64,000 bases of DNA, taken from the NCBI GenBank assembly GCA_039566865.1, contig CM076958.1, positions 1,116,001 through 1,180,000 of the forward strand, read 5' to 3'. Made by a program: the position numbers and the translations under genes. This DNA is from Aurelia coerulea (lineage: Eukaryota > Cnidaria > Scyphozoa > Semaeostomeae > Ulmaridae). This document shows positions 953 through 39,227 of this stretch, in pieces; position 1 is the stretch's first letter; each line of letters begins with the position of its first letter. Below the pieces are notes generated by a model. That model did not search any database. It had not been told where the DNA came from and worked only from the letters and a program-made list of their open reading frames with translations.

Positions 953-1075
953 CTATGACATGCTTTGAATCATAATGTTTGCCTTTGCATTGCGACGCCT
1001 TCTCCATAATCCGAGGTCTTTTGCGTAGTAGTTCATATTTCTCAGCCATTTCTGACATGTCGCTTCGTCTCCAGC
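953..1075 (-). CDS. Exon 19: PH C-terminal helix and stop
   Basis: Residues 1922-1961 and TAG. AGDEATCQKWLRNMNYYAK is the C-terminal PH helix with its near-invariant Trp (1931). A basic tail with WRRRRNAK follows. Confidence 0.85.
   Translation of the reverse strand, partial: AGDEATCQKWLRNMNYYAKDLGLWRRRRNAKANIMIQSMS

Positions 1076-39227: not shown

Follow-up and report, generated by a model that had tools for sequence, protein, structure and literature searches.

On the minus strand of the window, the whole 64,000-nucleotide stretch of Aurelia coerulea DNA that was analysed, lies a predicted gene whose product would carry an AGC-type pseudokinase, a long linker, a zinc-finger-like motif, and DH and PH domains, in this order. 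The initial annotation described a fused frame at 953-39227, and this frame was recovered at the same coordinates, with its ATG at 39227 and a stop codon ending at 953, when it was rebuilt from open reading frames, splice sites and phase. The exons do join in phase, as was claimed, but the counts of 19 exons and 1961 residues had to be given up, as the homology-corrected model has 21 exons and encodes 2038 residues (Table 1). In this final predicted model, based on open frames, splice sites, phase and the homologue P0002, all 20 introns (20/20) are of the GT-AG type and in phase.

The gene model draws on sequence and homology: the exon chain was built by hand and then mended with P0002. Exons 17 and 18 were added through tblastn with this protein. 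Exon 8, for which tblastn returned 0 rows, was located by visual comparison with P0002 and has the lowest internal acceptor score, 0.86 on a crude splice measure. The giant exon 5 has a single match within the 574-Mb assembly. Counterparts of the exon 1 segment are MTSSSKHGADQFEI in P0007 and MTDGKLHGTDCFEV in P0003, two entries that both begin further upstream. Two other chains were abandoned. Model A, with an inner acceptor at exon 9, came to 19 exons and 1952 aa and was discarded; model B (20 exons, 1965 aa) contained a 29-nt exon 8 and an exon at 8308-8276, both of which were swapped out after comparison with P0002, the latter having no tblastn match with that protein. A DH exon candidate near 14913 was replaced by the present exon 10.

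Two repeats lie in the exon 4/5 intron: a 108-bp tandem repeat of 5.1 copies (28819-29365) and an ATG microsatellite of 34.3 copies (27793-27895). A reverse transcriptase (RT)-like ORF, noted by eye at 5134-5790 on the plus strand, lies inside the exon 19/20 intron and has no Pfam match. Ten ORFs elsewhere gave one weak RVT_1 match in total; the RT-like ORF at 53612-54442 on the plus strand matches RVT_1 weakly, under the cut-off (E 0.0042).

Table 1. Exons of the predicted gene, with the encoded features and the basis of each assignment.
Exon	Encoded feature	Position	Strand	Basis or remark
1	MATANRHGADYFEIIS, pseudokinase start	39180..39227	-	donor GTAAGT; P0008 starts with the similar segment MTSERYGANEFEI
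2	pseudokinase N-lobe, with His41 in place of the VAIK Lys	34190..34353	-	alignment to kinases
3	pseudokinase core; HRD Asp replaced by Arg131, DFG Asp by Arg149; Cys/His cluster at the activation-loop place	31491..31922	-	alignment
4	pseudokinase C-lobe end, HPFFENIDWQK	29526..29670	-	alignment
5	giant exon (3740 nt); AGC tail (VKKRRLTPP) followed by the Ser-rich linker, with 15.7% Ser	18896..22635	-	alignment
6	DSG motif (aa 1544) in the linker	18135..18292	-	model
7	DSG motif (aa 1577) in the linker	16458..16606	-	model
8	first CxxC (LCHHC) of the zinc-finger-like motif	16005..16054	-	by eye; aligns to CMVC of P0002
9	second CxxC (CKRC) and DH start	15019..15136	-	tblastn with P0002, model
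10	DH	14580..14654	-	tblastn with P0002, model
11	DH	14268..14345	-	tblastn with P0002, model
12	DH	13261..13344	-	tblastn with P0002, model
13	DH	13008..13073	-	tblastn with P0002, model
14	DH (MPVQRIMK)	11694..11773	-	tblastn with P0002, model
15	DH end (YPLLLTRIY..RINE)	11320..11434	-	tblastn with P0002, model
16	DH-PH junction and PH start	10326..10487	-	tblastn with P0002, model
17	PH	9098..9199	-	tblastn with P0002, model
18	PH	7367..7495	-	tblastn with P0002, model
19	PH	6078..6120	-	tblastn with P0002, model
20	PH	2430..2485	-	tblastn with P0002, model
21	C-terminal helix of PH; WRRRRN..NIMI, the C-terminus of the family; stop	953..1075	-	tblastn with P0002, alignment

The N-terminal AGC pseudokinase

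The N-terminal part of the protein matches the Pfam Pkinase family (E 3.6e-13). When a 277-residue N-terminal query was compared with PDB chains as a single sequence, the best match was RSK4 (E 9e-20, query 11-264); a profile of six sequences placed MSK1 first (E 3.3e-43, profile positions 3-266 of 278), followed by RSK, S6K, PKC-iota/aPKC and Akt. The best 60 of 667 PDB sequences found with this profile consist of these kinases together with SGK and other PKCs. The AGC-type fold that was originally proposed is thus upheld by both searches, and also by structures predicted for the Clytia homologue, not for the window protein itself, in which the AGC fold is recognised, the N-lobe has low confidence and the alpha-C helix is not predicted. 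A search with the kinase region alone returned 0 homologues among 645 candidates, though homologues exist, and is uninformative.

The kinship with DMPK, MRCK and ROCK that had been suggested did not find support. No chain of these kinases was present among the rows listed from the sequence, profile or Clytia-model searches, nor among the best 60 of 667 sequences, so that the argument for feedback, which linked an effector-like kinase to a GEF, loses its basis. Kinases of the DMPK/MRCK/ROCK group carry C-terminal C1, CNH or Rho-binding domains; none of these was detected by Pfam on the kinase, linker or C-terminus, where only Pkinase and RhoGEF exceed the cut-off.

The window protein has lost its catalytic residues, as the initial annotation had stated, and the same holds largely for its relatives. 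Six fused copies were compared, i.e., the window protein and the database entries P0002, P0003, P0006, P0007 and P0008. The VAIK Lys is replaced by His in two of the six and by Glu in the other four. The position of the HRD Asp is occupied by Arg, His, Lys, Asn or Gly, with Asp in P0003 only, and HRDxK is lost throughout (6/6). The DFG Asp is Arg in all six copies, and the alpha-F Asp is retained in every one of them. In the alignment from the single-sequence search, one of the three Gly residues is left in the P-loop of the window protein. No hydrophobic-motif-like pattern was found by regular expression in the linkers of the six copies. The pseudokinase domains of the other fused copies are 29-43% identical to that of the window, and 25 columns are invariant among the six, including DxxGHV, the DFG Arg, W157, D187, HxF and the tail W. 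Together, this identity and these columns suggest that the domain is under selection.

At the place of the activation loop, five of the six copies show by eye a C, C, C, H pattern, which is absent from the Hydractinia copy. Judged from this pattern, the cluster may bind zinc. The corresponding stretch has a pLDDT below 50 in both Clytia homologue models (205-231 and 203-230), so the models do not support an ordered zinc site. This cluster, together with the invariant Arg that replaces the DFG Asp, hints that the conformation is fixed, perhaps stapled by zinc, instead of being switched by a nucleotide.

The junction of exons 4 and 5 falls at query position 255/256, in a query lacking eight residues of exon 4. 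Since the RSK match runs on to 264, nine residues of the giant exon form the AGC tail, and the MSK1 profile match stops at the same PP. The tail therefore spans the junction, and the join of kinase and linker looks real. Together with at least five database proteins that hold both domains, this bears out the original placement of the pseudokinase before DH-PH within one gene. The genomic ORF P0128, which is related to P0003, reads ..YFQ VRTRKTRPP at the junction place and by eye appears to share the start of exon 5. If so, the exon 4/5 junction predates the split between Anthozoa and Medusozoa.

The linker and the exchange-factor half

The linker comprises about 1,300 residues, is rich in Ser and is for the most part unconserved, apart from short islands; exon 5 by itself encodes 1,246 residues. 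It is about 30% identical to the linker of P0002, with islands including PDDVTFVTAESLEES, RANRLLESNFGNWR, ISDSDVLQKIKQGAFLQGN and VVSRESSIGSASDL, and 13-14% identical to those of the four more distant fused copies. A search with alignment A1 (six sequences) returned 12 proteins. Nine of them were linker ORFs of 961-1010 aa, two were other kinases and one was P0003, so that the survey of the kinase domain gained no new members from it. Pfam matches under the cut-off were disregarded (VAS1_LD 0.0051, Kinase-like 0.12, DUF7265 0.13). At least one DSG[VIL] motif occurs in 33 of 34 aligned family members, Hydractinia having none. These DSG motifs upstream of the finger resemble phosphodegron-like motifs.

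Right before the DH domain, a four-cysteine zinc-finger-like motif (CxxC..CxxC) spans residues 1615-1637 of the window protein, encoded by exons 8-9. The motif precedes DH in 119 of the 120 listed homologues by a loose pattern and in 99 by a stricter one, and the four Cys are present in all 34 aligned sequences. The DH domain is complete (Pfam RhoGEF, E 3.7e-38, profile positions 2-180 of 180). On the first, still incomplete gene model, Pfam did not detect PH. In the Clytia homologue a DH-PH fold is predicted, with pLDDT >90 for most of DH, and residues 765-1151 align to DH/PH chains with an rmsd of about 11 for both domains together, which places PH after DH; window exons 16-21 align to this homologue. 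On the first Clytia model, VIA listed only RhoGEF chains.

The survey of homologues covers 120 listed out of 416 matches. Five of them (P0002, P0003, P0006, P0007 and P0008) contain both Pfam domains, kinase and RhoGEF, and three of the five are named as Nematostella, Clytia and Hydractinia; P0002 and P0003 appear cnidarian from the tree. The search for the same order in other animals thus yielded at least five proteins, including those of the three named genera. P0002 has the domain order of the window, is 1976 aa long and is 76% identical to the DH-PH query over 76% of its length. It lacks the exon 1 residues, and P0006 lacks most of the N-lobe. The remaining 115 listed entries have RhoGEF only by Pfam; apart from unlabelled ones, their names come from fishes, amphibians, chelicerates, Branchiostoma, an acorn worm and a ribbon worm, and three group with anthozoans. 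When a profile of the six kinase domains was run against the 120 listed entries, only the five entries that built it matched, and none of the other 115 did at E up to 10. This absence from the listed RhoGEF-only entries implies either a gain in cnidarians or a loss in bilaterians. None of the 120 entries listed out of 416 bears the name of a sponge, placozoan, ctenophore or choanoflagellate.

Within the cnidarian grouping P0002-P0009, three of the eight entries lack a kinase domain, namely P0004, P0005 and P0009, which fall with the anthozoans. P0004 has no start Met and lies on a 3.7-kb contig. P0005 (Montipora foliosa, isoform X2) has no kinase core and by eye seems to start inside the giant exon; P0009 (Actinostola, partial) has none either and by eye fuses a start resembling exon 1 with other sequence. 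By eye, the models P0005 and P0009 look like isoforms or annotation errors.

The DH-PH tree was built from the window protein and 19 of the 120 listed homologues, with no other RhoGEF family as outgroup; P0016 was left out as it has no cutting motif. It tracks the order of species, with values of 100 for Anthozoa and Bilateria versus the rest, 96 for the window and P0002, and 100 for Bilateria. By sequence, the GEF half groups with RhoGEF64C-type arthropod proteins and fish 'arhgef49'. The link to fly RhoGEF64C is made by the name of the tick entry P0016, the fly protein itself not being among the 120 listed of 416 matches.

A probable non-catalytic head on a Rho exchange factor

Three papers on fly RhoGEF64C describe the protein as apical in the posterior spiracles, where Rho1 is proposed to be GTP-bound (PMC3892749), as involved in the shape and cytoarchitecture of stellate cells (PMC9231607) and as a modifier of Robo activity (PMC1876224). 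By analogy with what is proposed for fly RhoGEF64C and Rho1, the DH-PH of the window protein would act at the cortex and there load GTP onto a GTPase of the Rho family. The reading that we consider probable, with restrained confidence, is that of a cnidarian Rho activator of the RhoGEF64C/ARHGEF49 group, with a non-catalytic pseudokinase head that serves docking or autoinhibition and is attached by a long disordered tether. The pseudokinase would act as a folded binding module that phosphorylates nothing. It would either dock the GEF to a partner or cover DH-PH of the same chain and release it on ligand binding, and the tether would be long enough for contact in cis between the two. The Clytia homologue models (pTM 0.42 and 0.31) support no contact between pseudokinase and DH-PH, and docking and autoinhibition are indistinguishable from sequence.

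Several other explanations have to be weighed against this docking or autoinhibitory head. The gene might largely yield two separate products, pseudokinase and GEF, through a promoter or start in the giant exon, with the long fusion as a minor form. The Montipora isoform X2 fits such a scheme, as P0005 starts at an apparent giant-exon Met when compared by eye with P0003, and the ORF calls P0122-P0127 start at this same Met (P0003 residue 274), but these calls look single-exon and are silent on transcription. We consider two products unlikely in view of the at least five entries that contain both domains, the 4/5 and 5/6 splice sites that are in phase with good crude scores, and the AGC tail divided between exons 4 and 5. 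It is likewise rather improbable that the kinase domain, acquired in a single event, is now decaying as a passenger with no function of its own. Its identity to P0002 is 43% versus 85% for DH, its identity to the other four copies is 29-33% versus 59-64% for DH, and its catalytic positions are variable except for the DFG Arg, all of which speaks in favour of decay. Nevertheless, the domain with its 25 invariant columns has been retained in Anthozoa, Hydrozoa and the clade of the window, and the linker is only 13-14% identical to the four distant copies where the kinase reaches 29-33%.

The feedback device of the initial annotation, in which a DMPK/MRCK/ROCK-like kinase domain senses active Rho, can point to membership of the AGC group and to the physical linkage with a RhoGEF. 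It is nonetheless highly unlikely given that the best 60 of 667 PDB sequences include no DMPK/MRCK/ROCK chain, and given the lack of a GTPase-binding domain above the Pfam cut-off in the linker; moreover, ROCK and MRCK bind their GTPase outside the kinase fold. Hardly credible is an unconventional active kinase that binds ATP and performs catalysis via other residues. Kinases with a displaced Lys exist and provide a precedent, but here the VAIK Lys, HRDxK and the DFG Asp are lost in all six copies and the HRD Asp in five, no consistent substitute is seen except the DFG Arg, and the P-loop of the window protein keeps a single Gly of three.

A more far-reaching version of the non-catalytic head is possible but doubtful. 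The protein would be a cnidarian-wide and possibly ancestral-animal RhoGEF under an AGC pseudokinase, in which a zinc-binding Cys/His knuckle takes the place of the activation loop and the DFG Asp is fixed as Arg. Such a metal- or ligand-stabilised sensor would be older than the divergence of anthozoans and medusozoans, retained ever since, and absent from or lost in the bilaterian orthologues. If the cluster does bind zinc, it would be an unusual stand-in for an activation loop. More generally, with a non-catalytic head the Rho exchange factors would gain a class headed by a pseudokinase, and the layout suggests a non-enzymatic control of the cell skeleton; in cnidarians, a RhoGEF known in the epithelia and neurons of flies would carry another regulatory head. 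The reading is directly testable, as the homologues occur in genetically tractable species: Nematostella, Clytia and Hydractinia can all be genetically manipulated.

Comparison with known kinases and exchange factors

The domain architecture had been presented as one that could not be named, which is partly correct. A search of the open-licence PMC literature found nothing on arhgef49 or on the fusion of an AGC pseudokinase with a RhoGEF; the same order is, however, already present in uncharacterised cnidarian database proteins, and the DH-PH half falls within the RhoGEF64C/ARHGEF49 group. Nematostella LOC5513651, Hydractinia LOC130653941 and the Clytia entry, all titled 'uncharacterized protein', have pseudokinase, linker, finger, DH and PH in the order of the window, with linkers that are shorter. 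PsGEF was set aside as a different RhoGEF (PMC2684095).

With the RhoGEF64C-type proteins of arthropods, 'arhgef49' (si:dkey-91i10.2) of fishes and related amphibian entries, the window protein shares CxxC..CxxC, DH, PH, WRRRRN..NIMI and the DSG before the finger. Unlike the window protein, the listed members of this group are without an N-terminal kinase, both by Pfam and by profile search. The N-terminal kinase of MSK/RSK, as well as S6K, aPKC and Akt, are active enzymes; they have in common with the window protein the fold and the AGC tail as far as the final PP in xIxW..PP, whereas in the window protein the catalytic residues are lost and the hydrophobic-motif-like pattern is missing from the linkers. 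Trio, Kalirin and obscurin also combine a kinase with DH-PH in one chain, but their CaMK-like kinase stands behind DH-PH, while the AGC pseudokinase of the window stands in front. The contrast in order with these proteins drawn in the initial annotation is therefore sound, the window protein running from kinase through linker to DH and PH. In Dictyostelium, a LISK and a STE kinase are reported to be joined to RhoGEF in one protein (PMC1420674). These belong to other kinase groups and not to AGC as in the window, and likely represent a separate fusion. Altogether, the architecture of the window appears real and conserved, combining a GEF of a known group with a pseudokinase head that is, as far as seen, new to this group.
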